DNA from: Millisia brevis NBRC 105863
GTDB taxonomy: Bacteria > Actinomycetota > Actinomycetes > Mycobacteriales > Mycobacteriaceae
Assembly (NCBI RefSeq): GCF_001552615.1
Contig: NZ_BCRN01000013.1
Span: forward strand, 1-64,000
Length of the DNA: 64,000 bases
Direction: 5' to 3'
Part shown: positions 4,012 to 62,105 of the stretch, piece by piece
Layout of the letters: every line of letters starts with the position of its first letter
Position numbering within the stretch: position 1 is the stretch's first letter
Translations under genes and position numbers: made by a program
Notes under the pieces: generated by a model
Told to the model about the DNA's origin: nothing
The model's database searches: none
What the model saw: the letters and a program-made list of their open reading frames with translations, nothing else

Positions 4012-5238
4012 ATGTCCGTTCGAGTTCCGCAACGAATTCTGGTCGCCCCCAGCGGGTTCAAGGAGAGCCTCGACGCGACCACCGTCGCCGAGGCGATCGC
4101 CTGCGGGGTCCGCCGCGAACTGCCCGGAGTGATCGTCGACGCCGTCCCGATCCCCGACGGGGGAGAGGGCACCGCGCAGATTCTGGCCGAGGCGACCGGT
4201 GGAGTCCTCGAGCCCGCCACCGTGACCGGACCGGTCGGCGAACCCGTCGAATCCCATTGGGCGCGTTTGGGTGACGAGATGGACGGTACCGCGGTGATCG
4301 AGATGGCCGCCGCGGCCGGTCTGTCGTTGGTGCCCCGGGATCGGCGCGATCCGGGAGCGACGACCACCCGCGGCGTCGGCGAGCTGATCGCGCTGGCCCT
4401 CGACCGGGGGATCCGGCGCATCATCGTCGGCTGCGGCGACTCCGGCACCTCCGACGGCGGCGCCGGTGCACTGGCCGCACTCGGCGCGCGCATCCTGGAC
4501 GCCGACGGCAACCCGGTGCCCGACGGTGGCGCGAACCTCGCGCTGGTGGACCGCATCGATCTGTCCGGGCTGCATCCGGCGCTCGCCGAGACCCACATCG
4601 TGCTCGCCTGCAATATGTCGAACGTGCTGTGCGGTTCGCGGGGCGTCGCGCGGGTCTTCGGGCCGCAGAAGGGCGCCGACGAGCAGCAGGTCGAACAGTT
4701 GTCGCGGGCATTGGACACCTGGGCGCGGGTGCTGCGCCGCGACGGTGTGGCCCCGGATCTCGACGTGCGCCGCGGCCCGGGTACCGGGGCCTCCGGTGGT
4801 CTCGGCGCGGGGCTGGCCGCCGGTCTCGGCGCGCGGCTCGCCTCGCGCTTCGAGGTGCTGCTGGATCGGCGCTATACGGGCGTCGACCTCGACGGTCTGA
4901 TCGACGTCGCGGACCTGGTGATCACCGCGGAGGGCAGCATCGACCGCCAGACGCCGCACGGCAAGGTCCCGGCGGAGATCGCCCGACGCGCCTCGCACGT
5001 CGGCGTGCCGGTACTGGCGCTGGCCGGGTCGCTCGGCAAGGGCGCCCCCGAGGTGCACGACATCGGCATCGGCGCGATGGCCTCGATCATCCCGATTCCG
5101 ATGGAATTGTCCGAGGCGGTCGCCGACGGCCGGCGCCTGCTCGTCGAGGCCGCGTCGCGCACCATGCGCCTGGTCCTCCTCGGCGCCGCGGTCTCCGGCC
5201 GCAAGCGTGGGCGCAAGCGTGCCATCCACGCCGCCTGA
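4012..5238 (+). CDS. Glycerate kinase
   Basis: Glycerate kinase of the GarK/GlxK family (408 residues, close to the usual length but slightly extended), converting D-glycerate to phosphoglycerate with ATP in the cytoplasm. The family N-terminus ILVAPSGFKESLDATTVAEA is clear, followed by PIPDGGEGT and, in the second half, GPGTGASGGLGAGL and DLVITAEGSIDRQTPHGKVP, all typical. ATG 4012 was chosen because GGGAG at 4001-4005 lies 6 nt upstream; GTG 4009 is a close alternative. The C-terminus is Lys/Arg-rich. The gene stands alone: no glyoxylate carboligase or tartronate semialdehyde reductase is beside it, so it may serve glycerate salvage. Confidence 0.9.
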   Translation: MSVRVPQRILVAPSGFKESLDATTVAEAIACGVRRELPGVIVDAVPIPDGGEGTAQILAEATGGVLEPATVTGPVGEPVESHWARLGDEMDGTAVIEMAAAAGLSLVPRDRRDPGATTTRGVGELIALALDRGIRRIIVGCGDSGTSDGGAGALAALGARILDADGNPVPDGGANLALVDRIDLSGLHPALAETHIVLACNMSNVLCGSRGVARVFGPQKGADEQQVEQLSRALDTWARVLRRDGVAPDLDVRRGPGTGASGGLGAGLAAGLGARLASRFEVLLDRRYTGVDLDGLIDVADLVITAEGSIDRQTPHGKVPAEIARRASHVGVPVLALAGSLGKGAPEVHDIGIGAMASIIPIPMELSEAVADGRRLLVEAASRTMRLVLLGAAVSGRKRGRKRAIHAA

Positions 5239-5497
5239 CCCTTCGATCGGTCAATCTGCCGCTTTCTATGACCGAAGCTAGAGTTCCGCAGATCTCCATG
5301 TGTTCGGCAACGATGCAGGTCACCGACGTGACCACCCGGGCGGGCCCGCCTATCGGCAAAATATTTTGAAATCTACAGCCACGTCTAGAAAGATGAATAG
5401 ATAGCTAACAAGCGGTAGCCGTCAGGCTTGTATCGGGAGTATCCGAAACTGTTGGATAAACGCTAGATTCGGATAGATCTCCTGATAGGCGGCCGCG
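5239..5497. other. Intergenic region with shift to A/T-richer DNA
   Basis: This stretch between two converging genes holds no supported gene. Its left part has two small GC-rich inverted repeats (GGTCAC/GTGACC at 5318-5333 and a GGCGGGCCCGCC palindrome just after) that may end transcription of the glycerate kinase gene. From about 5355 the sequence becomes strikingly richer in A and T than the surroundings (for example CAAAATATTTTG and a run of ATAGATAGCTAA), continuing up to the Abi gene. This looks like the edge of acquired DNA. No clear flanking direct repeat or integrase was found. Confidence 0.5.
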
Positions 5498-6487
5498 TCA
5501 CGGGGATGCCGATGGCCAGAAGGGGTCGCTCAGCCAGTCGTCGGGGATTCCCATTCCCGCGAGCGGCACCGTTGGATGCTCCCGGAGAAGGTCTTCGACG
5601 CGCAGCGCCCATCGTGACGTCGGAGCTATCGTGTGGAGCATCGTTTGAAGCGAGACGAGCACCGGGAAGAGTCGTCGGCGCCGCCAACCGTCGCGGTGGA
5701 ACAGGCTCCGATCATCCAGCCATCGAATAGCCGACGAGCGGGGAGTGGCGGGATAGACCCCGAGGCCGCGATTCCAGAGTCGTCCGTGGTGCGCGCAGAT
5801 GTTTCGTACGCGCCGGTAGGTGAGGAGCCACGATTCAAGGATCGGGGCGCGCGTTCCCAGGCTCTCCGCGATCGCGTTCTTCGCCGCGGGGTCGGCGAGG
5901 GCGGCGTAGACGTTCCGGACAGTGCCGAGGTTGACCTCTTCGAACGCCGGCCAGCAGGGTGGACGCTCGGGAGTTCCGTATCGGGTGACGTAGTGCTCGA
6001 GCGCGGAGACGAACGTCTCCCGATCGGTTGGCTCGTGCGGCCGCCGACGTTGTTCGCCGACGAGCCGATCGATGTCGTTCAGTAGCCGCTCGTGGACCCG
6101 CGGTACGCGGAAGCGTTCGGGATCCTCGTACCAGTGTGGACCTGCTGTTAGTGACATCCGGTCGCAGATCGCCGCTCGCACGGCGATTTCGACACGTTCG
6201 AGCGGGTCGAGAACGGTCAGCCGCAGTTTGCGGTCGAAGATGTACAGACCGAGGACGTCGTCGAAGGATGTTCCCGGTCGCATCTGGTCACGTGTTCCGG
6301 CTTCGAAGCTGCGGACATACGCCGAGAGGCGGTAGTAGCCGATATGTCTGAGGTACCGGGCCGCTCGCTCTCGGTCTCCGAGGACGAGTCCCCGTTCGAC
6401 CCAGCGATCCAAGAACTCGTGCTCGGGGAGTGCGGGCTTGGAGTAGATCTCCGTGCCCCGAGCCGGAGCCGATTGGTACTTGGGCAA
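5498..6487 (-). CDS. Abi_2/AbiF-type HEPN abortive-infection protein
   Basis: Abortive-infection family protein (Abi_2, PF07751-like), about 329 residues. Recognisable family blocks are KPALPEHEFLDRWVERGL and YLRHIGYYRLSAYVRSFE at the N-terminus, LYIFDRKLRLTVLDPLERVE centrally, and VRNICAHHGRLWNR near the C-terminus. The last block contains RNICAH (DNA 5789-5806), the R-x4-H pattern of HEPN ribonucleases, so the protein is predicted to cut RNA as a toxin or defence effector. The open frame continues to GTG 6550, but that would translate two strong hairpins; the in-frame TTG 6487, just past them, is preferred though unproven. Codon use is less GC-biased than the neighbours, suggesting transfer. 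It lies 95 nt downstream of an AAA+ ATPase gene on the same strand. Confidence 0.88.
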   Translation of the reverse strand: MPKYQSAPARGTEIYSKPALPEHEFLDRWVERGLVLGDRERAARYLRHIGYYRLSAYVRSFEAGTRDQMRPGTSFDDVLGLYIFDRKLRLTVLDPLERVEIAVRAAICDRMSLTAGPHWYEDPERFRVPRVHERLLNDIDRLVGEQRRRPHEPTDRETFVSALEHYVTRYGTPERPPCWPAFEEVNLGTVRNVYAALADPAAKNAIAESLGTRAPILESWLLTYRRVRNICAHHGRLWNRGLGVYPATPRSSAIRWLDDRSLFHRDGWRRRRLFPVLVSLQTMLHTIAPTSRWALRVEDLLREHPTVPLAGMGIPDDWLSDPFWPSASP

Positions 6488-6550
6488 AGAAAATCCCCCG
6501 GTTGCGCGTCGTTGAGAGGCTCGGGGGATGTGGTAACAAAAGGTTACCAC
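6485..6550 (-). ncRNA. Putative structured RNA (AbiF-associated RNA antitoxin candidate)
   Basis: Read on the minus strand, a perfect hairpin GTGGTAAC-CTTTT-GTTACCAC (6550-6530) is followed at once by a second stem ATCCCCCG/CGGGGGAT (6529-6522 with 6500-6493) with a 21-nt loop containing CUCUCAACGACG, and then TTTTCTTT, as in an intrinsic terminator. The whole element sits directly upstream of the Abi gene. A conserved structured RNA upstream of abiF-type genes, reported to act as an RNA antitoxin, is known, and the position and architecture here match my recollection of it. The hairpins are seen; the function is inference. A terminator-leader that limits Abi expression is the main alternative. 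Confidence 0.65.
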
Positions 6551-6581
6551 GGGTAGGTCGAGCGATCCCCGGAGCCTTTCG

Positions 6582-7772
6582 CTATTCGTTCGTCTGGTTG
6601 CGCAGGTACTTGCCGAAGTGCGGGACGGTGAAACCGATCGAGCCGCGCTCGGCCGAGTAGATCAGCCCCTTCTTGATCAACCCGTCGCGGGCGGGGGAGA
6701 GGGATGCGGGCTTGCGGCCCAACTCGGCGGCGATCTTGCTGGTCTGGACCGGCCCCTCGTCCCCGGCGAGGTCGGCCATCGCTCGCATGTACTCGCGCTC
6801 GGCCGGCGTCGCCCGCTCGTAGCGGGACCCGAAGAACCCCACCGCCAACTCCTCCTCGGCGGTCGGCGCGGCCCGCAGCGCGTCCTCCCCGGTGATCGGC
6901 GACCCGGCGGCGAGATCCCAGGTGGCCTTGCCGTAGGCCTGCACGAAGTAGGGATAGCCGTCGGCCAGCCGGAAGAGGGTGTCGAGCGCTTCCTCGGTGA
7001 ACTCGACGTCCTCGCGCTCGGCCGGGGCGATCAGCGCCCGGTCGGCGGATTCGCGGTCGAGCCGGTCGATGCGGTGATACCCGAAGAGTCGCTCCGAGTA
7101 GCTCTTCGACGCCGACAGCACCGCCGGCAGATGCGGCAGCCCGGCGCCGACGACGATCAGCGGCGCCGCGTCCTGGCTCAACTCGTGGCAGGCACCGCAG
7201 ATCGCGGAGATATCGGGAGCGGACAGGTCCTGCATCTCGTCGATGAACAGGGCGATCCCGACGCCGACGTCGCGGGCCAATGATGCCGCGTCGACCAGCA
7301 ATTCGACCAGATCGATCTCGATGTCACCGGAGTCGGCGCGGCCCTTGGCCGCGGGGGCGTCGATCCCGGGCTGCCACCGCTCGCGCATCCCCTTGTCGGC
7401 GGTCGCCCGCAGCGCAAAGGCTTTGAGCACGCCGAGGAAGTCCTCGACCCGGTCGGGATCCCGGTGGGTGGCGGCGATCTCGCGGACCGCCATGTGCAGC
7501 GCCGACGACAGCGGCCGGCGCAGATCCTGCTCCGGTCGCGCCTCGATCTTGCCGGTACCCCAACGCCGTCCGATCGCGGCCGAGCGGAGATGGTTGAGCA
7601 GCACCGTCTTGCCGACGCCGCGCAGACCGGTCAGCATGACGCTGCGCTCCGGGCGGCCGCGGGCGATGCGCTCGAGGACGACGTCGAAAGCGGTCAGTTG
7701 CTTGTCGCGGCCGGCCAGCTCGGGTGGACGCTGACCGGCACCGGGGGCGTACGGATTGCGCACGGGGTCCAT
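6582..7772 (-). CDS. AAA+ ATPase (Orc1/Cdc6-like NTPase with C-terminal winged helix)
   Basis: ATP-binding protein of 396 residues. Walker A GLRGVGKT is at 49-56 and Walker B ALFIDEMQD at roughly 180; a sensor-like region VVGAGLPHLP follows. The C-terminal 100 residues look like a winged-helix domain (SKIAAELGRKPASLSPARDGLIKKGLIY). Proteins of this layout occur widely in actinobacteria as stand-alone AAA/STAND-type ATPases with no agreed role; some sit in defence loci. It is encoded on the same strand and 31 nt upstream of the putative RNA of the Abi locus, so co-transcription is possible. Its base composition is as GC-rich as the chromosome, unlike the Abi gene, so the neighbourhood may be coincidence. 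Confidence 0.75.
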   Translation of the reverse strand: MDPVRNPYAPGAGQRPPELAGRDKQLTAFDVVLERIARGRPERSVMLTGLRGVGKTVLLNHLRSAAIGRRWGTGKIEARPEQDLRRPLSSALHMAVREIAATHRDPDRVEDFLGVLKAFALRATADKGMRERWQPGIDAPAAKGRADSGDIEIDLVELLVDAASLARDVGVGIALFIDEMQDLSAPDISAICGACHELSQDAAPLIVVGAGLPHLPAVLSASKSYSERLFGYHRIDRLDRESADRALIAPAEREDVEFTEEALDTLFRLADGYPYFVQAYGKATWDLAAGSPITGEDALRAAPTAEEELAVGFFGSRYERATPAEREYMRAMADLAGDEGPVQTSKIAAELGRKPASLSPARDGLIKKGLIYSAERGSIGFTVPHFGKYLRNQTNE

Positions 7773-7893: not shown

Positions 7894-10398
7894 CTACCAG
7901 CGACCCGGCACGGTCGCCGAGATGATCGTGCCGTCGGCGCGCATGGTGCCGGCCGGATTGCGCGGCTTGCCCTCGAGCAGCGGGCCCTGATCCTTCAGCG
8001 CGACGGACACCGGCGAGTTCGGACCGACGGTGACCTTCTCACCGCGAACGGTGAAGGTGAGCGCCTGGTCGCCGTCCTCGACGGTGAACCTGATCGACGA
8101 ACGCTCCAGGTCGACCCGCACCCGGGTGCCATGCAGTGTCACCCGGTAGGTCAACGCCTCCCACTCCTCGGGCAGACGCGGGTCGAACGACCACTGCTCG
8201 TCCCCGCGGTGGGTGCCGAAGTCGCGGAAGCCGCCGAAACCGGCCGCCAGCGCACTCCAACACGCGCCGACCGAGGCGACGTGCACCCCGTCGGCGGTAT
8301 TGGCATGCCTATTGGCCAGGTCGACGTACACCGCCTCGCGGAAGTAGCTCAGCGCCAGATCCTGGTAGCCCACCTCGGCGGCGATGATCGACTGCGCGAC
8401 CGCCGACAGCGACGAGTCACCGGTGGTGATCGGGTCGTAGTAGGAGAAATCGGCCAGCTTCTCCTCCAACGTGAACTCCTCGCCCTGCAGGAACAGCGCG
8501 AGCACCACGTCGGCCTGCTTGAGCACCTGGAACCGGTAGATCACCAGCGGGTGGTGGTGCAGCAGCAGCGGCCGCACGTCCAGCGGGGTGTGCTCGATGT
8601 CCCACATCTCGCGGTCGAGGAAGCGGGAATCCTGCGGATGGATGCCGACCTTCTCGTCGAACGGGATCGACATCCCCTCGGCGCAGGCCCGCCATTCGAC
8701 GATCTCGTCGTCCTCGAGGCCGGTCCGGCGCACCAATTCGGCGTAGGCCTCGGGGTCCGCGGCGCGGGTCTCCTCGACCGCGTCGGCGGCTCGCCGCAGG
8801 TTGAACCGGGCCATCACGTTGGTGAACATATTGTCGTTGACGACGGTCGTGTACTCGTCGGGACCGGTGACCCCGTGAATATGGAAGGTGGAGTTGCCGT
8901 TCTGGCGCAGCCAGAAGCCCAGATCCGCCCACAGCCGCGCCGTCTCGACCAGGATATCGATGCCCTCGCGGTGGAGGAAATCGAGATCGCCTGTCGCGCC
9001 CACATATTGGCTCAGGCCGTAGGAGATGTCGGCGTCGATGTGGTACTGGGCGGTGCCGGCGGCGTAGTAGGCGGAGGCCTCGTTGCCGTCGATCGTCCGC
9101 CAGGGGAACAGGGCGCCGCGCTGGCTGAGCTCACCCGCGCGCTTGCGGGCGGCCGGCAGCAGCGAATGCCGGAAACGCAGCGCATTGCGTGCGAAATTGG
9201 GCGAGGTATACGTCAGGAACGGCAGGACGTAGATCTCGGTGTCCCAGAAGTAATGCCCGCTGTATCCCGAACCGGTGACACCCTTGGCCGGGATGCCCTG
9301 CTGCTCCGCGCGAGCCGCCGCCTGGATGATGGAGAACAGGTTCCAGCGGGTCGCCTGCTGGATATCGGGCGCGCCGCGCACCTCGACGTCCGACCGCTTC
9401 CAAAACTCCTCGAGCCATTCGATCTGCTCGTCGAACTGGTACTGGATGCCCTCCTCGTCGATCGCGCGGTCGAGGGTGCGCTCGCAGCGGTCGATCAATT
9501 CGCGTGCCGGCACCCGGGTGGCCGTGTGGAACGACGCGAGCTTCTCCAGGCGAATGGTCTGGCCGGCCTCCGCCTGCATGCGGAAGATGATCTTGCCCTC
9601 GTCGTCGGAGATGCTCGACTCCGTGACGATATCGGCGGGGCCCGAAATGTGGTGGTCGACAACCGTACCGATGGTCATCCGGCTCTCCGCCGCGCGGTAG
9701 CCGAGTCGGATGCGGCCCTTCTGCTCGTCGATCGAACTGACCTGGGGCACCAGAACCCGCCGGTGGAAGCCCTCCGCCTTGCGGGGGTCGGCGATGCCGC
9801 TCTCGGCCTGCACCTCCTCGGCCAACTCCCGGTCGCGATCCTGCCGATTGATCAGCTGGCTGGAGATCTGGACCGGGGCGCTGTCGTCGAGCAGGGTCAC
9901 CTCGAGGGTCATCACCGCGAGATGCTTGTCCGCGAAGGACACCATCCGCTTGCTGACCACCCGCACCCGCTTGCCGCTCGGGGTGCGCCACAACAGATCC
10001 CGCGTGAGAACGCCGGTCTTGAAGTCGAGGCGGCGCTCGTACTCGAGCAGGTCGGCCGTCGACAGTTCGAGCGGCTCGTCGTCGACGTAGAGGCGAATCA
10101 CCTTCGGATCCGGGACGTTCACGATGTTCTGTCCGACCCGCGCCAGGCCGTAGGCCTCCTCGGCATGCTGGATCGGCCAGATCTCGTGGAAGCCGTTGAT
10201 GAACGTGCCGTCCTCGTAGGCGTCGCGGCTCTCCTCGTAATTGCCGCGCAGGCCCAGATAGCCGTTGCCGACGCTGAACAGCGTCTCGGTAACGCCGAGA
10301 TCTTCCGGCTCGAAGCGCTTTTCAACCAGTGCCCAGTCATCGAGCGGGAAGCGGTTGCGGTCCAGGGGATCGCCGGCAATGGAGGTGAACGCGCTCAC
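7894..10398 (-). CDS. Glycoside hydrolase family 65 disaccharide phosphorylase
   Basis: Family 65 protein of 834 residues, probably a cytoplasmic alpha-glucoside phosphorylase (maltose, trehalose or kojibiose type) that releases beta-glucose 1-phosphate. The N-terminal beta-sandwich begins with NGYLGLRGNYEE, and the (alpha/alpha)6 barrel carries GVTGPDEYTTVVNDNMFTN near residue 512, which includes the family's catalytic glutamate. The GTG start overlaps the stop of the preceding beta-phosphoglucomutase gene (GTGA). This pairing matches the mycobacterial Rv3400-Rv3401 arrangement: phosphorolysis feeds beta-glucose 1-phosphate to the mutase, giving glucose 6-phosphate. The disaccharide specificity cannot be read from sequence. 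A clear terminator follows. Confidence 0.9.
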   Translation of the reverse strand: MSAFTSIAGDPLDRNRFPLDDWALVEKRFEPEDLGVTETLFSVGNGYLGLRGNYEESRDAYEDGTFINGFHEIWPIQHAEEAYGLARVGQNIVNVPDPKVIRLYVDDEPLELSTADLLEYERRLDFKTGVLTRDLLWRTPSGKRVRVVSKRMVSFADKHLAVMTLEVTLLDDSAPVQISSQLINRQDRDRELAEEVQAESGIADPRKAEGFHRRVLVPQVSSIDEQKGRIRLGYRAAESRMTIGTVVDHHISGPADIVTESSISDDEGKIIFRMQAEAGQTIRLEKLASFHTATRVPARELIDRCERTLDRAIDEEGIQYQFDEQIEWLEEFWKRSDVEVRGAPDIQQATRWNLFSIIQAAARAEQQGIPAKGVTGSGYSGHYFWDTEIYVLPFLTYTSPNFARNALRFRHSLLPAARKRAGELSQRGALFPWRTIDGNEASAYYAAGTAQYHIDADISYGLSQYVGATGDLDFLHREGIDILVETARLWADLGFWLRQNGNSTFHIHGVTGPDEYTTVVNDNMFTNVMARFNLRRAADAVEETRAADPEAYAELVRRTGLEDDEIVEWRACAEGMSIPFDEKVGIHPQDSRFLDREMWDIEHTPLDVRPLLLHHHPLVIYRFQVLKQADVVLALFLQGEEFTLEEKLADFSYYDPITTGDSSLSAVAQSIIAAEVGYQDLALSYFREAVYVDLANRHANTADGVHVASVGACWSALAAGFGGFRDFGTHRGDEQWSFDPRLPEEWEALTYRVTLHGTRVRVDLERSSIRFTVEDGDQALTFTVRGEKVTVGPNSPVSVALKDQGPLLEGKPRNPAGTMRADGTIISATVPGRW

Positions 10399-53195: not shown

Positions 53196-54788
53196 TTACG
53201 CGGGTGCGGACACCCGAATCAGATAGTCGAACGCGCTGAGGGCGGCGGTGGCGCCGGAGCCCGCGGCGGTGACGATCTGCTTGTACGGCGCGGTGGTGCA
53301 GTCGCCGGCGGCAAAGACGCCGGGGACCTCGGTACGTCCCGCACCGTCGATGACGATCTCGCCGCGCTTGTTCAGCTCGACGGTCCCCTCGAGCCAGTCG
53401 GTATTGGGCAGCAGACCGATCTGCACGAAGATGCCGTCCAGGTCGGTTTTCTCCTCGGTGCTGTTCGCCCGGTCGATCCAGCTGACCGCGGTGACCTTCG
53501 AGCCGTCGCCGGCCACCTGGTTCACCTGAGCGGAGGTGTGCACGGTGGTGTTGCCCATGCTGTGCAGCTTGCGCTGCAGCACCTCGTCGGCACGCAGCTG
53601 CGAGTCGAACTCGAAGAGGGTGACCTGCTCGCAGAGCCCGGCCAGATCGATCGCCGCCTCGACGCCGGAGTTGCCGCCGCCGATCACCGCGACCTTCTTG
53701 CCCTTGAACAGCGGGCCGTCGCAGTGCGGGCAGTAGGTGACACCCTTGTTGAGGTAGTCGTCCTCACCCGGCACCGACAGCGAACGCCAGCGGGCGCCGG
53801 TCGCCAGGATCACCGAGCGGGCGGTCAGCCGCGCACCGTTGTCGAACTCGATCTCGATAGGCGCACCGGGCTCCGCGCCGGGGTGCAGGGCGATCGCCTG
53901 CTGCCGGGAGATCACGTCGACGTCGTAGTCGCGCACATGCTGTTCGAGCGCGGCACCGAAGGCGGGGCCCTCGGTATGTAGGATCGAGGTGAAGTTCTCG
54001 ATGCCGCCGGTGTCGAGCACCTGGCCGCCGAGCTTACGGGCGACCAGTCCGGTGCGAATTCCCTTGCGGGCAGCGTAGATCGCCGCGGTGGTGCCGGCGG
54101 GTCCGCCGCCGATGACCAGCACGTCGTAGGTTTCGCGCTCGTTCATCTGCTCGGTCTCGCGCTCGCCGACCGAGTCGTCGAGCTTGCCGACGATCTCGGC
54201 GAGGGTCATCCGACCCTGTCCGAAGACCTCACCGTTGACGTACACGGTCGGCACGCTCATCACCTGACGCTGCTCGACCTCGTCGGCGAAGGCGCCGCCC
54301 TCGATCGCGGTGTGGGTGATGTTCGGGTTCAGCGCGCTCATCAGGTTGAGCGCCTGGACCACGTCCGGGCAGTTCTGGCAGGTCAACGAGAAGTAGGTCT
54401 CGAAGTGCAGCGGACCGCTCAGGGCCGAAACCTGCTCCAGCAGAGCGGCTTCCTCCTTGGCCGGGTGGCCGCCGACGTGCAGCAGCGCCAGCACCAGCGA
54501 GGTGAACTCGTGGCCCATCGGGACGCCCGCGAAACGCACGCCCGAGTCCTCGCCCGGTCGGGTGATCAGGAACGACGGACGCCGCACATCCAGGGTGTTG
54601 TCCTCGCGGACGGTCACCCGGTCGCTGAGGGCGGCGATATCGTCGAGCAGATCGTTCATCTGCCGAATCGTCTTGGCGCGAGCCGGTTCCGCCGTGGACG
54701 GGTCGTCCGCGGTGATCACCAGTTCGATCGGATGCCGCAGATTGGTCAGGTAGGTCGACAACTGGTTCTTGAGAGTGGCGTCCAACAT
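53196..54788 (-). CDS. ahpF: Alkyl hydroperoxide reductase subunit F
   Basis: Flavoprotein of 530 residues that regenerates AhpC with NADH. The N-terminal glutaredoxin-like pair domain carries the redox motif TCQNCPDV. The thioredoxin-reductase part has [21 protein letters not shown] for [17 protein letters not shown] (CPHC disulfide), [14 protein letters not shown] for NAD and [16 protein letters not shown]. The ATG overlaps the ahpC stop by 4 nt (ATGA). AhpC-AhpF of this type is the enterobacterial-style system; many mycobacteria use AhpD instead. Confidence 0.96.
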
Positions 54789-55351
54789 CAGATCTTGCCC
54801 ACCAGTTCCAGCGACGGGGCCAGGGTGTCGTCGCCCTCGTCCCACTTGGCCGGGCAGACCTGGCCGGGGTGGGCGGCGATGTACTGGGCGGCGCGCACCT
54901 TGCGCAGCAGCTCCTGGGCGTCGCGGCCGATGCCGGTGTCGTGCACCTCGATGGTCTTGATGCGGCCTTCGGGGTCGACGACGAAGGTGCCGCGCAGCGC
55001 CTGGCCGGCGTCCTCGATCAGGACCTCGAAGTCGCGGGAGAGCTGGAAGGTCATGTCGGCGAGCATCGTGTACTGGACCTTGCCGACGGCCGGGGAGGTC
55101 TCGTGCCACGCCTTGTGCGCGAAGTGGCTGTCGGTCGACACCGAGTAGACGTCGACGCCGAGCGCCTGGAAGGCGTCGTAGTTCTCGGCGATGTCCTCGA
55201 GCTCGGTCGGGCAGACGAAGGTGAAGTCGCCCGGGTAGAAGACGAAGACCGACCAGCGGCCGAGCAGATCGTCGCTGGAGACCTCGAGGAACTTGCCCTG
55301 ACGGTAGGCGTTGACCTTGAACGGCTTGATGGTGGTGTTGATCAGGGACAC
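54788..55351 (-). CDS. ahpC: Alkyl hydroperoxide reductase subunit C
   Basis: Peroxiredoxin of 187 residues, the same length as E. coli AhpC. It begins [20 protein letters not shown] and contains the peroxidatic Cys in [15 protein letters not shown] and the resolving Cys in [14 protein letters not shown], ending [11 protein letters not shown]. It reduces hydrogen peroxide and organic hydroperoxides. GTG 55351 has GGAGGG 7 nt upstream. It is co-transcribed with ahpF. A 17-bp palindrome about 80 bp upstream may be the operator; no oxyR gene is adjacent. Confidence 0.97.
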
Positions 55352-55427
55352 GGCAGAACCCTCCTGGAGAACGACGGGATATCGGCACAAGTGGTGCGAT
55401 GCGGGGAACGACAACGTAACCCCCGTA

Positions 55428-55444
55428 TCTGGATTTAATCCAGA
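55428..55444. promoter_or_regulatory. Palindrome upstream of ahpC
   Basis: TCTGGATT / AATCCAGA arms around one central base, in an otherwise A/T-rich patch 77 nt before the ahpC start. Position and symmetry suggest a regulator site, but the regulator (OxyR, a Fur-type or other protein) cannot be named. Confidence 0.5.
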
Positions 55445-55555
55445 AAAGATCGGAAACGCAAATTGACCTTCGCCACGATTTTCGAGGTTTGTGACGTTCC
55501 CCATCCGAGGCGTCCCGGAGGGTGGTGTGGCGCCCCGCTGCGGGGCCGCGCGGGG

Positions 55556-57013
55556 TTACACTCGGGCAGGCTCACGTGTCTGGTACGGCCCGGGATCGAA
55601 GTGGCCGAACCGATTTCGGAATTCCGCCGCTCGTCCCGGCCATAGCAGCACCTGCCGACCCGAACGCGGATCGACGTACCAGTTGCTGCACCCGCTGGTC
55701 CACACCCCGCTGCGCTCGGCTATCTCGGCGGCGTACGCCTCCTCCGCCTCGGCGGTCACCTCGAGCGGCCCGCGCCGCGTCCACGGCAGCGCGCCGGTGA
55801 CGTAGTCGGCCTGCGCCTCGATCATCAACACCGCCGAGTTGTGCGGCAGCGTCGCGTTCGGTCCATCGAGCACGAAGAGATTCGGGAAGCCGTGCACCGC
55901 GGTCGACGCGTAGGCGCGCATCCCCTCGGACCAGTGCTGCTCGAGGGTGCGACCACCGCGGCCGCGGATCAGGGCGGCATAGGGCTGGCGGGTGCTGCGG
56001 AAGCCGGTCGCCAGGATCACCGCATCGACCTCGTGCCGTCCGCCGTCCGCGGTGTGCACCGCATTCGCCGAGTAGCTGTCCAGCGCCTGCGGGATCAGCC
56101 GCACGTGCGGCAGGTTGAGTGACTCGTAGTAGTCGTCGCTGAAAAGAACACGCTTGCAACCGAATTCGTGGTCCGGGCGCACTGCTTCGCGGACCACCGG
56201 ATCGATCACCCGGTCGGCGAGGTGGGCCAGCGCCCGGGAGCGCGCGGCCTCGCGGCCCGCGCCGGCCCGCTCGTCGAAGACCGCCTCGGCCTCGTCGAAC
56301 ATCGTCGAGCGCAGGTCGCGCAGGACGGTGGGGCGCTGTTCGAACAGTTCGCGCTCGGCGGCCTCGTAGCCCCGGTCGCCCTTGGGCAGGATGTAGGGGG
56401 CGCTGCGCTGCAGCACGGTCACCGACGCGGCCTTCGCGGCCAGCTCGGGTAGCAATTGGACGGCGGTCGCGCCGGTGCCGACCAGCGCCACCCGGCGGCC
56501 GGACAGGTCGATGTCGTGATCCCAGCGCGCCGAATGCACGATGGGACCGGAGAATTCGCCCGGTACCGCGGGCAGGCTCGGCTCGGTCAGCCGGCCGCAG
56601 GCCAGGATCAGTACGTCCGCGATCACGGTCCGCGCATCCCCGGCGTCCGACACCTCGCCGGTGGTCGAGGTGCGCAGCGTCCACCGTCGACCGTCCCAGG
56701 AGGCGCCGTCGAGCGAGGTGCGCAGCCGCAGCCGATCGGCCACCGGCGCCGCCGCAGTTTCCAAGTATTCGCGAATCTCGGCCCCCGGGGCGAAGACTCG
56801 GCTGAAACCGGGGTTGGGGACGTCGGCAAAACAGTAGAGGTGGGCCGGCACATCGCAGGCGACGCCGGGGTAGGTGTTGTCGTACCACGTGCCGCCGACC
56901 CCGTCGCGCCGCTCCAGGATGACGAACGACTCCCCGGCCGCGGCGAGCCGTCGGCCCATCGCGATTCCGGCGAAGCCGGCACCGACCACCGCCACCCGTA
57001 CCCGCAGGGTCAC
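55556..57013 (-). CDS. Baeyer-Villiger-type flavin monooxygenase
   Basis: FAD/NADPH-dependent monooxygenase of 485 residues. The FAD motif is [17 protein letters not shown], the class fingerprint F-x-G-x3-H-x3-W-D is present as [12 protein letters not shown], and the NADPH motif is [17 protein letters not shown], in the order found in type I Baeyer-Villiger monooxygenases. Motifs such as [17 protein letters not shown] and [11 protein letters not shown] are also typical. GTG 57013 overlaps the stop of the FbiC-like gene (GTGA), so the two products are likely made together; this gene pairing is not one I recognise. The substrate, whether a ketone or an N/S compound, is unknown. Confidence 0.9.
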
Positions 57014-59268
57014 CGGGCCACTCCATAGGTGGTCGTGCGGATGCGCAACTGTCGGCCGAGGGTCTTGGCGATCCGGCGGGCATCCTCGACCGGCAGCTGC
57101 CGACCGAACTCGACACCGGCCTCCGGCACCACCCGGCCGTCGAGCAAGGTGCCGCCGAGATCGTCGGCGCCGGAACGCAGTACGGTCAGCGCCCCCTCGA
57201 CGCCGAGCCGCGTCCACGCCGCCTGGATATGCCGGATGCTGCCGTGCAACATCAGCCGGGCCACCGCGTGTACCGCCCGATGGTCGTCCTCGGTATGGGA
57301 GCCGCCCGGAAAGGCCATCGGCACCAGTTCGGTGAAGCCGCCGGTATCCGACTGGATTCGCCGCAGCCCCCGCAGGTGCGCGACCAGCTGTTGTGGCGTC
57401 TCGCCGTGCCCGTAGAACAGCACCGACGTCGAGCGCAGCCCCAGGCCGTGCGCCGCGCGGATCGCCTCCTCCCACCGCTGCACCGGCAGGTCGGTGGGGA
57501 AGACCCGCGCCCGGTAGGCCTCGTCGAGGATCTTGACCCCGGTGCCCGGCACGGTGTCGACCCCGGCCGCCCGCAGGGCCGCGTACTGCTCGGTCACCGA
57601 ACGCCCGGTGCGCCGGGCCCCGTCGATCACATCGGCCGGGCGGAAGGCGTGCAGGTGCAGACCGGGGGCGGCCCGCTTGACCGCCGCCGCGATCCGCTCG
57701 TAGACGTCATCCGGGGCATCGGGACCGGCGGTGCCCTGGATGCACAGCTCGGTCGCGCCGAGGTCGACGGTGTCGCGGGCGACGTCGGCGACCACCGCGG
57801 GATCCCATACCCGGTCCGAGCCGAGGTTGCGGTTGCCCACCTGGGTGATCGTCGCGCCGACCATCGAGCGGCGCAGTTCGTCGGCCAGCTCGGTCAGCCG
57901 GTCCAGTTCGGCGCCGCGTGCGGTCAGCAGCGCCGCATAGTCGTCGTCCGAGAGCCCGGAGGGGTCGTCGGCGGCCCGTTCGATCGGATCGCGTCGGGTC
58001 CGGCCGGAGGTCTGTGGGTCGGCGGTCGAACCGAGCGGGGTGACCGGGCGGGCGCCGAAGCCGGCCAACCCGTCCTCGCCGGCGAGGGCGAGCACCGGCT
58101 CGTGCAGGGCCGGATCGATCCACCGGTCGCGGTCGTGGATATACGGCGGGTGCACGGTGATCCGTTCGCGCAGGGTGTACCCGGCGGCGCGGGTCGCCGC
58201 GGCCAGGGCCTCGACCTGGGGCCAGGGCCGTTCCGGGTTGACGTGATCGGCGGTCAGCGGGCTGACGCCACCCCAATCGTCGATGCCGGCGGCGACCAGT
58301 CGGGAGAACTCGGTCGGGTCGCTGAGGTTCGGCGGTACCTGCACGCGGGCGTCCGGCCCGAGCACGATCCGGGTGGTCGCGACGGTGGCGATATAGGCGT
58401 CCATATCGGCGTCGTCCGCGGCCTGCATCGCGGTTCCCGGCTTCGCCCGGAAGTTCTGCACGATGATCTCCTGCAGATTGCCGTGCCGCTGCTGGGCATC
58501 CCGCAGCGCGAGGATCGTCTCGAACCGTTCCTGCGGGGTCTCGCCGATGCCCATCAGCAGACCGGTGGTGAACGGGATGCGCAGCGTGCCGGTGTCCTCG
58601 AGGACCTGCAGCCGCACCGCCGGGTCCTTGTCGGGGGACCCGAAGTGAGCCTCGCCCGGGTCGGTGAACAGCCGGGTCGAGGTGGTCTCGAGCATCATGC
58701 CCATCGACGGCGCCGTCGGGCGCAGCGCGACCAACTCGTCGTGGCTCATCACCCCCGGGTTGAGGTGCGCGAGCATGCCGGTCTCCGCGGTGATCCGCCG
58801 CGCGAGGTGGCCGATGTAGTCGAGCGTCGAGGCCCACCCGTGTGCGTCGAGCCATTCGCGCGCGACGTCCCAGCGCTCCTCGGGGCGATCGCCCAGGGTG
58901 AGCAACGCTTCCTTGCAGCCCAGGTGCGCGCCCTGGTGGGCGGTCGCGAGGACCTGCTCCTCCGACAGATAGGGCGGGATGCCCTTGCGGGTCAGCTTGG
59001 CGGGGGTGTCGACGAAGACGCAGTAGTGGCAGCGGTCCCGGCAGAGGGTGGTCACCGGGATGAACACCTTGCGCGACCAGGTGATGACGCCGGGGCGGCC
59101 GGCTCGCTCGAGCCCCTCGTCGCGGATGCGCCCGGCCTCGGCGACCAGCTCCGCCAGCTCGTCACCGCGCGCCAACAGCATCGATACGTCGGGGGCGCGG
59201 CCACCGGAAACCACCGCGCGGGCGGGGCCGTGCGCGGGTCGCGTCGTGCCATCGACCACTGCTGCCAT
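57010..59268 (-). CDS. FbiC-like protein with intact CofG half and degenerate CofH half
   Basis: A 752-residue two-module protein like FbiC, which makes the deazaflavin F0 of coenzyme F420 with two radical-SAM modules. The CofG module (about 30-400) is intact, with LCRDRCHYC (Cys76, 80, 83) and close family likeness (GCKEALLTLGDRPE, LNPGVMS, PSMGMMLETTS, DWGGVSPLTADHVNPERPWP). The CofH half (about 450-752) keeps GATELCIQG, LHAFRPADVIDGA, TVPGTGVKILDE and GGADDLGGTL-type blocks but lacks the CxxxCxxC cluster motif: after GNRNLGSD the sequence jumps to VWDPAVVADVARD (DNA about 57790-57850), a net loss of about 20 residues. The usual segment near the QN..LYLAG block is also shortened. It is coupled to a flavin monooxygenase. 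Either it is a paralogue with a new role or a decayed FbiC. Confidence 0.85.
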   Translation of the reverse strand: MAAVVDGTTRPAHGPARAVVSGGRAPDVSMLLARGDELAELVAEAGRIRDEGLERAGRPGVITWSRKVFIPVTTLCRDRCHYCVFVDTPAKLTRKGIPPYLSEEQVLATAHQGAHLGCKEALLTLGDRPEERWDVAREWLDAHGWASTLDYIGHLARRITAETGMLAHLNPGVMSHDELVALRPTAPSMGMMLETTSTRLFTDPGEAHFGSPDKDPAVRLQVLEDTGTLRIPFTTGLLMGIGETPQERFETILALRDAQQRHGNLQEIIVQNFRAKPGTAMQAADDADMDAYIATVATTRIVLGPDARVQVPPNLSDPTEFSRLVAAGIDDWGGVSPLTADHVNPERPWPQVEALAAATRAAGYTLRERITVHPPYIHDRDRWIDPALHEPVLALAGEDGLAGFGARPVTPLGSTADPQTSGRTRRDPIERAADDPSGLSDDDYAALLTARGAELDRLTELADELRRSMVGATITQVGNRNLGSDRVWDPAVVADVARDTVDLGATELCIQGTAGPDAPDDVYERIAAAVKRAAPGLHLHAFRPADVIDGARRTGRSVTEQYAALRAAGVDTVPGTGVKILDEAYRARVFPTDLPVQRWEEAIRAAHGLGLRSTSVLFYGHGETPQQLVAHLRGLRRIQSDTGGFTELVPMAFPGGSHTEDDHRAVHAVARLMLHGSIRHIQAAWTRLGVEGALTVLRSGADDLGGTLLDGRVVPEAGVEFGRQLPVEDARRIAKTLGRQLRIRTTTYGVAR

Positions 59269-61043: not shown

Positions 61044-62015
61044 CTACGAGCCGCCGAGCGAGGCCAGGACCTCGTCGGCGTGGGCGACGTCGGCGCGCTC
61101 GAAGGTGCTGACGCTCGCGAGGACCTCCGACGCCCCGGTGCGCTTCACCACCTGCGTGAGCGCCTCGGCCACCTGTTCGGGGGTACCGGCGATCGCCGAG
61201 TCGGTCCGGGCGCGCACGACCTCGAGCTTCCGGTCGCTCGCCTCGGTCCGCAGCAGCTCGCGGACCTCGTCGACGGGTCGCAGCGCGCGGAACTCGCCGA
61301 CATCCCGCGAGTCGGCGTAGGCCCAGGAGTCGGGGAGCAGCAGGTCGCGCGCCTGCTCCTCGGAGTCGGCGACGGCGACCTCGACCCCGACCATCAGGTA
61401 CGGCTCGGGTGCGTGCTCGCTGCCCCGGTAGGTACGGAAGTACGTCTCGACGGCGGCCGTATCGGTGACCAGTGGCCCGGCGATCACCGCCGGCATCCCC
61501 AATGCGGCGGCCAGGGTCAGACCGTTGCGGATGGCGAGCAGGAACAGTGGCGGCGGCGGCACGGACGGTCGGGCGGTGACCTCCGCGCGGCCGTCCAGGT
61601 AGGCGCGGACGCTCTCGATCTCGGCGGCGTACTGCTCGTCCCGCAGCTGCGTCCGCCCGAGGGCGCGGCGGATCGGGGCGGTGAAGCCGAGCGAACCGCC
61701 GAGGCCGATGTCGATGCGGCCGGGATACAGCGATTCGAGCAGCAGGGCCTGTTCGGCGATCACCAGCGGTGGGTGGTTCGGCACCATGATGCCGCCGGTG
61801 CCCAGGCGGATCCGTTGGGTGCGCGCGCCGATCGCAGCGAGCAGCACCGCCGGTGCGGCGGAGGCGATACCGGGGACCGCGTGATGTTCGGCGGTCCAGA
61901 ACCGTTGGAAACCAAGCGCTTCCGCGCGCCGTGCCCGCGCGACGGTGGCGGCGACCGCTTCGGCATCCGATTCGCCCGCACGGGTGCGGGATCGGTCGAG
62001 CAGCGACACCCGCAT
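61044..62015 (-). CDS. Luciferase-like (LLM class) flavin-dependent oxidoreductase
   Basis: TIM-barrel oxidoreductase of 323 residues of the bacterial luciferase-like superfamily, in the MsnO8-like group that uses FMN or F420. MRVSLLDRSRTRAGE at the start, FWTAEHHAVPGIASAAPAVL, IRLGTGGIMVPNHPPLVIAE and YPGRIDIGLGGSLGF are typical. ATG 62015 was preferred over 62048 because the conserved N-terminus begins there. It is convergent with the permease. The nearby FbiC-like gene makes an F420 link tempting, but nothing in the sequence distinguishes F420 from FMN use. Confidence 0.86.
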   Translation of the reverse strand: MRVSLLDRSRTRAGESDAEAVAATVARARRAEALGFQRFWTAEHHAVPGIASAAPAVLLAAIGARTQRIRLGTGGIMVPNHPPLVIAEQALLLESLYPGRIDIGLGGSLGFTAPIRRALGRTQLRDEQYAAEIESVRAYLDGRAEVTARPSVPPPPLFLLAIRNGLTLAAALGMPAVIAGPLVTDTAAVETYFRTYRGSEHAPEPYLMVGVEVAVADSEEQARDLLLPDSWAYADSRDVGEFRALRPVDEVRELLRTEASDRKLEVVRARTDSAIAGTPEQVAEALTQVVKRTGASEVLASVSTFERADVAHADEVLASLGGS

Positions 62016-62105
62016 CGGTCCGCACCCCCTCGGCTCGTCGTTCCTCATCGGGTGGAACCGGCGCGGGTGCCCCCGGATTCCCGGTGGATCGGATGCCCGG
62101 TGGAG

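Follow-up and report, generated by a model that had tools for sequence, protein, structure and literature searches.

Many actinobacteria appear, judging by their gene sequences, to make F420 with a form of FbiC whose second radical half lacks the iron-sulfur site. This half, denoted here CofH*, is encoded next to a Baeyer-Villiger monooxygenase (BVMO), and the two probably replace the radical CofH functionally in FO synthesis, whatever the chemistry. The evidence comes from the loss of the cysteines, the retention of the CofH fold and conserved columns, the strict pairing of the two genes, the separate clades formed by both proteins, the swap of the pair as a module, and the other F420 genes of the same genomes.

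An FbiC without the second cluster site

The variant was found in a stretch of 64,000 nucleotides from Millisia brevis NBRC 105863 (the window), where the relevant features of the gene are the following.

57010..59268, minus strand: fbiC variant, CofG-CofH* fusion of 752 aa in one uninterrupted frame
58039..59268, minus strand: CofG half, approximately residues 1-410, with an intact radical-SAM domain (TIGR03550 above the cut-off, residues 63-391)
59020..59043, minus strand: CRDRCHYC, the CofG [4Fe-4S] motif (Cys76/80/83)
57013..57996, minus strand: CofH* half, residues 425-752, a radical-SAM-like barrel without the cysteine motif (no CX3CX2C; AlphaFold2)
57748..57834, minus strand: the stretch from NRN to GATE, site of the cluster loop in canonical CofH (22 vs 43 residues, no Cys)
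57640..57642, minus strand: Arg543, specific to CofH* (Ser in canonical CofH), a switch conserved at the level of at least 95%; candidate new active-site residue

The CofG half retains CX3CX2C, as the initial annotation had stated for Cys76/80/83, and scores 438 bits against TIGR03550 (cut-off 213.35). The CofH half yields 295.7 bits with TIGR03551 and falls under the cut-off of 374.1, and the whole protein is likewise under the cut-off of the NCBIfam CofGH model (NF006687; 898 vs 1018 bits). The Pfam Radical_SAM model also matches residues 481-633, and the half has the partial TIM barrel of the CofH/MqnE type, with no [4Fe-4S] cysteine motif.

The missing motif can be localized between NRN (residues 479-481) and GATE (residues 504-507). 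These blocks are separated by 22 residues with no cysteine in the window protein, vs 43 residues with three cysteines in canonical CofH (measurable in 32 of 40 rows); hence approximately 21 residues are missing, the shortened stretch being 57760-57825. The initial annotation had described the absence of CxxxCxxC after NRN correctly and had placed an in-frame loss of about 20 residues close by, at 57790-57850. The single nearby cysteine that it mentioned is Cys509, the sole one in the CofH half, situated in a column where canonical CofH has a conserved cysteine too. Its other statements on this half, that the frame contains neither a stop nor a frameshift and that the remainder is recognisable, agree with our data, and we share its view that such a half alone should not perform the CofH chemistry and hence would not make the FO precursor.

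CX3CX2C is absent from all 92 CofH* loci having a CofH match (91 distinct; one of the CofH* loci, L067, is truncated by its contig end), and in the 72 of 91 CofH* rows open to measurement the stretch from NRN to GATE contains no cysteine. The loss is thus common to 91 distinct loci, which rules out a sequencing error, considered earlier as a way in which the cysteines might be restored; nor is this a one-off protein, since the feature defines a clade.

Decay can be dismissed as well. When 91 CofH* rows were compared with 40 canonical ones, 59 near-invariant CofH columns were kept, and the AlphaFold2 model of the CofH* half is confident (pLDDT 94.7), the closest PDB fold being MqnE (6xi9/6xig, TMq 0.85-0.86). 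In the same comparison five residues, Arg543 among them, were switched at the level of at least 95% conservation.

Distribution of CofH* and other F420 genes

The window genome was searched for a second FbiC or CofH, and none was found; a weak CofH match on its contig C23 was rejected, as the translation reads as BioB. Hence the gene at 57010-59268 is the only one found, and not a paralogue beside a normal fbiC, as had been claimed together with the suggestion to look for a separate complete fbiC. The initial annotation had also reasoned that, with no other fbiC, the motif would have to be supplied differently. The direction was right, although the data suggest that the whole step, rather than the motif, is supplied, by the adjoining BVMO. 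Other F420 genes of this genome, all over their cut-offs, are cofD (C14:108028), cofE (C14:107297) and an FGD-family gene (C9:88871; 259.5 bits vs 210.4).

Over the wider set, cofD exceeds the cut-off in 41 of 41 genomes, and cofE is present in 48 of 48 and exceeds it in 47. A canonical FbiC besides CofH* was observed in one genome of 41, that of Nocardioides alkalitolerans; in the other 40, the window genome included, we found no CofH over the cut-off. In genus g117 none of 149 genomes has a CofH over the curated cut-off, and 76 have a sub-cut-off match at E 1e-30 or better, a count based on scores and not on the cysteines.

The profile search for CofH* was confined to the class of the window genome. 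Sub-cut-off CofH matches in the class sample came from 20 genomes, of which 11, including the window genome, carry CofH* with a BVMO. Another seven encode cysteine-bearing enzymes, taken for the futalosine type and rejected as CofH* (one of these genomes, G407, also holds pieces of canonical FbiC); the match in G173 was a canonical FbiC cut by the contig end, and that in G346 was a fragment not covering the cluster site. A scan of 84,980 genomes was based on six peptide patterns taken exactly from the window protein; the best 80 of 85 were retained, and the scan thus favours close relatives.

In the CofH tree (24 CofH*, 24 canonical, one odd and 8 Mqn-type rows) CofH* forms a single clade with support 100/99. 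Most of its members are Microbacterium; Nocardioides alkalitolerans and relatives of the window genome also belong to it. Long branches occur for some tree rows, e.g. L065 and L176. The alignments A1 and A2 contained 31 and 27 rows, respectively, and L034 and L189 represent one genome.

The adjoining monooxygenase

Immediately downstream of the fbiC variant lies a gene that the initial annotation did not connect with it.

55556..57013, minus strand: type-I Baeyer-Villiger monooxygenase (FAD, NADPH), by sequence, fold and position the proposed partner replacing CofH
57010..57013, minus strand: GTGA overlap, the likely BVMO start GTG over the fbiC stop TGA
56519..56554, minus strand: BVMO fingerprint, a 12-residue match to FxGxxxHxxxW(P/D)
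56150..56152, minus strand: Arg293 (numbered from 57028; 288 from GTG), aligned with PAMO Arg337
56267..56269, minus strand: Arg254 (from 57028), linked-specific position, candidate carboxylate binder
56591..56593, minus strand: Arg146 (numbered from 57028), a linked-specific position with at least 92% conservation among linked BVMOs and a possible functional role

Type-I BVMOs are recognised by the fingerprint FxGxxxHxxxW(P/D). The window protein has it, as well as both Rossmann motifs and the catalytic Arg and Asp; among proteins of solved structure it comes nearest in sequence to steroid, cyclohexanone and phenylacetone monooxygenases, and its AlphaFold2 model (pLDDT 90.5) is closest in fold to type-I BVMOs. 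Among 87 linked BVMO rows, all have GxGxxG within the first 60 residues and Gly184 and Gly186 of the second Rossmann motif (with Ala at the third position in 81 rows and Gly in the other 6); the FxGxxxHxxxW pattern is present in 85 and missing in two.

The equivalents of PAMO Asp66 and Arg337 are kept in all 87 linked BVMOs. They are also kept in all 20 unlinked ones, hence these residues are uninformative on the substrate, which is not predictable from sequence. What distinguishes the linked BVMOs is a set of 14 positions, including Gly82, Arg146 and Arg254 (numbered from 57028). The two arginines, at least 92% conserved in the linked group, are replaced in the 20 unlinked BVMOs by Ala, Pro or Gln and by Leu, Phe or Met, respectively.

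Gene pairing and module swap

In all 90 CofH* loci with room on the contig, the BVMO gene is located directly downstream on the same strand; L081 and L085 (no CofH sequence) and L067 and L010 (contig ending before a BVMO could be seen) were left out. We observed no BVMO in any of the 40 canonical FbiC regions fetched (38 with room downstream, 2 without), which were chosen from the over-cut-off matches listed in the class sample. As Microbacterium appears in the titles of 63 of the 87 paired loci that were tallied, and g117 accounts for a further five, the pairing mostly reflects one genus and is far from 90 independent observations.

The association is seen in the BVMO phylogeny too: the linked BVMOs (25 of the 90) are split from 20 unlinked ones, taken from the best matches listed, with support 100/100. 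When seven genes of the window were compared with 159 loci by tblastn (E 1e-20), matches were obtained for FbiC and the BVMO only; AhpF and the other neighbours had none there and were ruled out as conserved partners.

Three genomes of the same family have separate genes in the operon order CofH*-BVMO-CofG. Their CofH* proteins fall inside the CofH* clade, and their CofG proteins inside the clade of canonical FbiC native to that family (support 99/98, together with G008 and G316; CofG tree of 58 rows, in which L114 and L235 are the same gene). A fourth relative, G010, has the CofH*-BVMO pair at a distance from CofG. Its resident FbiC has kept CofG, and the CofH half of that protein has a branch of 1.44, compared with 0.05-0.12 in the four canonical rows belonging to the subtree.

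Proposed route and alternatives

In the route that we put forward, FO would be the product, the BVMO would act in the CofH step, and the substrate would be 4-hydroxyphenylpyruvate (4-HPP) in place of tyrosine, in keeping with the suggestion of the initial annotation that the protein may use another substrate. Using O2 and NADPH, the BVMO would insert an oxygen between the keto and benzylic carbons of 4-HPP, by analogy with PAMO, which turns phenylacetone into benzyl acetate (PMC3404926, accessible part). The resulting 4-hydroxybenzyl oxalate would lose oxalate to give a p-quinone methide. With 5-amino-6-ribitylaminouracil bound in the CofH* barrel, C5 of this pyrimidine may capture the methide, yielding the same adduct as the radical CofH. 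The intact CofG half could then cyclise it to FO, and CofD and CofE would finish F420. On this view a former radical enzyme would now catalyse an ionic condensation with an oxygenase as its supplier, and this unit would have been transferred between lineages as a module. We offer this O2-dependent, non-radical cleavage of 4-HPP, with capture in a cluster-less barrel, tentatively, as somewhat short of an even chance. The use of tyrosine, not 4-HPP, by canonical FbiC, given in the available portion of PMC12855090, counts against it. Since CofG is still a radical-SAM domain, the swap is not accounted for by oxygen tolerance alone. The gene pairing, too, could reflect another F420-related role of the BVMO.

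If CofH* and the BVMO replace CofH by other chemistry, such as N-oxygenation of tyrosine or attack of a flavin hydroperoxide on the pyrimidine, the tyrosine preference of canonical FbiC would be accommodated, and the matches of the BVMO to the Pfam FMO-like and lysine/ornithine N-monooxygenase models (43.9 and 31.8 bits, above the gathering scores) would be in line with it. This reading shares the main claim that CofH is replaced; we regard it as somewhat less likely than the 4-HPP route, given that type-I BVMOs are the nearest match in both sequence and fold and that an arylacetone BVMO makes the required benzylic cleavage.

It is improbable that the pair yields a product other than FO, for example a modified deazaflavin or another aryl-pyrimidine, for further processing by CofG and CofD/CofE. 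Sequence does not fix the product, the oxidising partner is unrelated to CofH, and the five conserved switches would suit a changed reaction; against this, the scores of CofG, CofD and CofE are those of normal members of their families, and the module-swap genomes have the module in place of the canonical CofH half, with the family CofG kept. Moreover, an FGD of equivalog level (472.7 bits vs cut-off 420) adjoins the BVMO in L014. The clusters containing the CofE and FGD frames of this locus occur in 26 and 25 of 33 neighbourhoods, respectively, counts that are approximate due to single-linkage clustering and shadow-frame ORFs.

Were the CofG half to perform both radical reactions, CofH* would be a substrate-binding scaffold, consistent with the intact CofG and the 59 shared columns, and the BVMO would be incidental. 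We consider this highly improbable: the pairing is strict (90/90 vs 0/40), the unit stands away from CofG in G010, and the three split operons preserve the order CofH*-BVMO-CofG. Supply of the CofH reaction by a separate radical-SAM enzyme, with CofH* as a relic, is hardly credible, although N. alkalitolerans does have a canonical FbiC and the window genome has 13 radical-SAM Pfam matches (two being the FbiC gene itself), since no over-cut-off CofH occurs in the other 40 genomes or in the g117 ones, and the conserved columns argue against a relic.

Relation to known systems and implications

Replacement of CofH by CofH* and the BVMO would set this system apart from its relatives. With the canonical CofG-CofH FO synthase it shares the domain order, the intact CofG, the CofH fold with its 59 columns, and cofD and cofE in the genomes; it differs in having neither cluster cysteines nor the cluster loop in the CofH half, in scoring under the CofGH and CofH cut-offs, and in the BVMO following CofH* wherever the contig allowed a check. 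MqnE, aminofutalosine synthase, is the nearest solved fold, but is a radical-SAM enzyme with approximately 22% identity, whereas CofH* has no cluster site. The linked BVMO resembles phenylacetone, steroid and cyclohexanone monooxygenases in fold, both Rossmann motifs, fingerprint and the catalytic pair, yet forms a separate clade, adjoins CofH* and has the 14 linked-specific positions. In the case of HemN and HemF, an oxygen-sensitive radical-SAM step is replaced by an oxygen-dependent enzyme. Here, similarly, a single biosynthetic step would be solved in two ways, by an anaerobic radical reaction or by an aerobic one, but CofH* keeps the old barrel without the cluster, and the second radical step of the pathway stays.

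In the accessible part of the open literature we found no description of the CofH*/BVMO pairing or route, and the available text of a Microbacterium genome note mentions an F420-dependent oxidoreductase only. The FbiC label in the annotation of these genes would mask their difference from the canonical enzyme. A 2021 review, in its accessible part, states that all producers studied make FO by one universal mechanism, which involves two radical-SAM domains (PMC8498797). If our reading is true, this rule would be broken in one large genus and several other lineages, and the old idea of 4-HPP as the precursor, dropped for canonical FbiC (PMC12855090, available portion), would become testable where it may hold. 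It would also show a radical-SAM barrel put to new use in the absence of its cluster, and would provide an oxygen-using substitute for one half of FO synthase, which might help in producing F420 in aerobic hosts.

An FO synthase variant with a single cluster motif

The variant fbiC gene and its neighbours in the window are:

53196-55504, minus strand: ahpC and ahpF, adjoining the BVMO gene and above the NCBIfam cut-offs (AhpC, 321 against 272; AhpF, 730.6 against 502.9)
55556-57013, minus strand: type I Baeyer-Villiger monooxygenase (BVMO), 485 residues
57010-59268, minus strand: fbiC variant, 752 residues
59516-60991: NCS1-type transporter, below the cut-off of all models
61044-62048: MsnO8-family LLM oxidoreductase

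As proposed in the initial annotation, the CofG half retains its CxxxCxxC motif (CRDRCHYC, residues 76-83; NCBIfam CofG model above the cut-off), and the CofH half is shortened and lacks this motif. The interval between NRN and GATE comprises 22 residues and no cysteines, compared to 43 residues and three cysteines in canonical CofH, that is, CofH with CX3CX2C (32 of 40 rows measurable). The single cysteine of the half, Cys509, occupies a column that is Cys in canonical CofH as well. The score is below the cut-off for the CofH model (295.7 vs. 374.1) and also for the full-length CofGH model (898 vs. 1018).

The suggestion that this gene is a paralogue accompanying a separate complete fbiC was not upheld: a search of the whole assembly (5.6 Mb, 53 contigs) with the window protein yielded one match only. 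The CofH model matched the fbiC variant, its pieces, and one weak candidate, which is a biotin synthase as read from its frame; hence neither search found a second FO synthase gene. The genome has cofD and cofE together on another contig (C14:107297-108957), and an FGD-family gene.

The CofH* clade

For the related loci (the best 80 of 85 from genome contigs, mostly Microbacterium), the frame examined showed no CX3CX2C beyond that of the CofG half; three of these frames are truncated, and the CofG cysteines of one locus (L068) lie in a different frame. The window itself, three loci of the same family and ten found in a sample of the window's class brought the total to 94 loci, two of them without CofH sequence; CX3CX2C was absent from the CofH match in all the remaining 92 (91 distinct). 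Below, CofH without the cluster cysteines is denoted CofH*.

In the class sample (394 genomes), 273 had a CofH-type match at 1e-40, 253 above the cut-off and 20 below it, 11 of the latter being CofH*. In one genus (g117), scored by match only, 76 of 149 genomes had a CofH-type match, sharing coordinates with the Microbacterium loci, and none of the 149 had a CofH match reaching the cut-off. In the tree, CofH* forms a single clade (support 100/99, stem 0.76), so that, as judged from sequence, the cysteine loss is clade-defining.

Decay of the CofH* half was rejected, given 59 columns with at least 95% identical residue in both groups (91 CofH* and 40 canonical rows), five clean switches from canonical to CofH* (Ser543Arg, Asn549Asp, Asp623Glu, Glu710Asp, Glu711Gly), and a confident predicted structure (pLDDT 94.7). 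The cluster loop is absent or replaced, this stretch spanning 22 to 54 residues (72 measurable CofH* rows). The predicted fold is closest to MqnE; other matches include the tyrosine lyases ThiH and HydG.

Two genomes carry two CofH-type copies each (G084, C12:310183 and C45:330921; G556, C19:31662 and C13:51339), which could reflect duplication or a mixed assembly; in the former, cofE too gives a further match, which scores below the cut-off and contains an inner TAG.

The linked monooxygenase

The BVMO gene lies directly downstream of fbiC, its likely start and the fbiC stop sharing GTGA. The nearest solved relatives of this flavoprotein are steroid, cyclohexanone and phenylacetone monooxygenases. 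The positions aligned to Asp66 and Arg337 of phenylacetone monooxygenase (PAMO) are invariant in linked (87/87) and unlinked (20/20) rows alike, and FxGxxxHxxxW is present in 85 of 87 linked rows.

In all 90 loci (89 distinct) with enough contig, CofH* has a BVMO gene directly downstream on its own strand, the distance between match edges ranging from -16 to 541 bases (median 36.5), and no such gene was found in the 40 canonical FbiC regions (from 18 family codes; 38 had downstream space, two had not). Fisher's test gives 2e-33, overstating independence, as most loci belong to one genus. No match was found near other CofH* loci for ahpC and ahpF, nor, at E 1e-20, for the transporter and the MsnO8-family oxidoreductase.

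In the tree, 25 linked BVMOs are split from 20 others, drawn from the best matches listed, with support 100/100. Among 61 related genomes, the top four matches to the window BVMO, counting the gene itself, come from the four genomes with identified CofH* (at least 457 bits; the fifth, 391.5). Fourteen positions are specific to linked BVMOs, including Arg146 and Arg254 (numbered from 57028), neither of which occurs in the 20 unlinked proteins.

Probable replacement and transfer

Three genomes (G006, G016, G233) have separate genes in the order CofH*-BVMO-CofG, and no further CofH was found in them. Their CofG groups with G008 and G316 (99/98), inside the clade of canonical FbiC from their own family, and their CofH* falls in the CofH* clade; a complete canonical FbiC is present in G008, which shares its genus with G233. 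These placements indicate that the three lineages kept their own CofG and acquired CofH*-BVMO from elsewhere, the radical CofH half being lost. In G010, CofH*-BVMO and CofG are on different contigs. Its resident FbiC (L176, G010:C2:1185000-1197000, 4373-6862) has an intact CofG and a strongly diverged CofH half with CX3CX2C (CEPGCRYC), whose placement is unsure because of the long branch (1.44); this half may be in the course of being lost. The pattern in these four genomes is the one expected of functional replacement.

In all three trees the nearest kin of the window genome are genomes of one family (f41), followed by Nocardioides alkalitolerans; hence the window genome seems to have acquired the whole CofG-CofH*-BVMO set. 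N. alkalitolerans (G099) carries both this set and a canonical FbiC (L178, 2710-5307), being a natural strain with genes of both routes.

F420 genes elsewhere

All 41 genomes searched for cofD have it, as do all 48 searched for cofE, where 47 matches exceed the cut-off. The 48th, Frondihabitans (G094), has a cofE match in two frames, as does its FbiC around the CofG cysteines (F. sucicola, L068, about 8001-10246); these are frameshifts or assembly errors. In the four f41 genomes cofE is within 5 kb of CofH*. At another locus (L014) CofE precedes FbiC, and the BVMO is followed by a gene that passes the cut-off for F420-dependent glucose-6-phosphate dehydrogenase (Fgd; 472.7 vs. 420). Microbacterium is one of the Fgd-bearing genera named in a 2021 review (PMC8498797).

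A possible route to the CofH adduct

Canonical CofH is described as converting tyrosine to a p-hydroxybenzyl radical, which is added to the diaminopyrimidine (PMC8498797). 4-Hydroxyphenylpyruvate was formerly considered the FO precursor, and FbiC was later shown to require tyrosine, according to a review (PMC12855090). Since PAMO is reported to turn phenylacetone into benzyl acetate (PMC3404926), and 4-hydroxyphenylpyruvate is analogous, the linked BVMO might supply p-quinone methide. It would act on 4-hydroxyphenylpyruvate, an arylacetone-type keto acid matching phenylacetone, to yield 4-hydroxybenzyl oxalate. This ester is expected to lose oxalate readily, and its loss would leave p-quinone methide. 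Captured by the nucleophilic C5 of 5-amino-6-ribitylaminouracil, p-quinone methide would give the same adduct as radical CofH. Arg146 and Arg254 of the BVMO are, at a guess, candidate binders of the keto-acid carboxylate, and Arg543, gained by CofH*, might similarly have a role in the mechanism. We found no published description of such a CofH*/BVMO route in open PubMed Central papers. On the sequence evidence, CofG-CofH* is a real, systematic variant of FO synthase, with the BVMO as its candidate enzyme partner.
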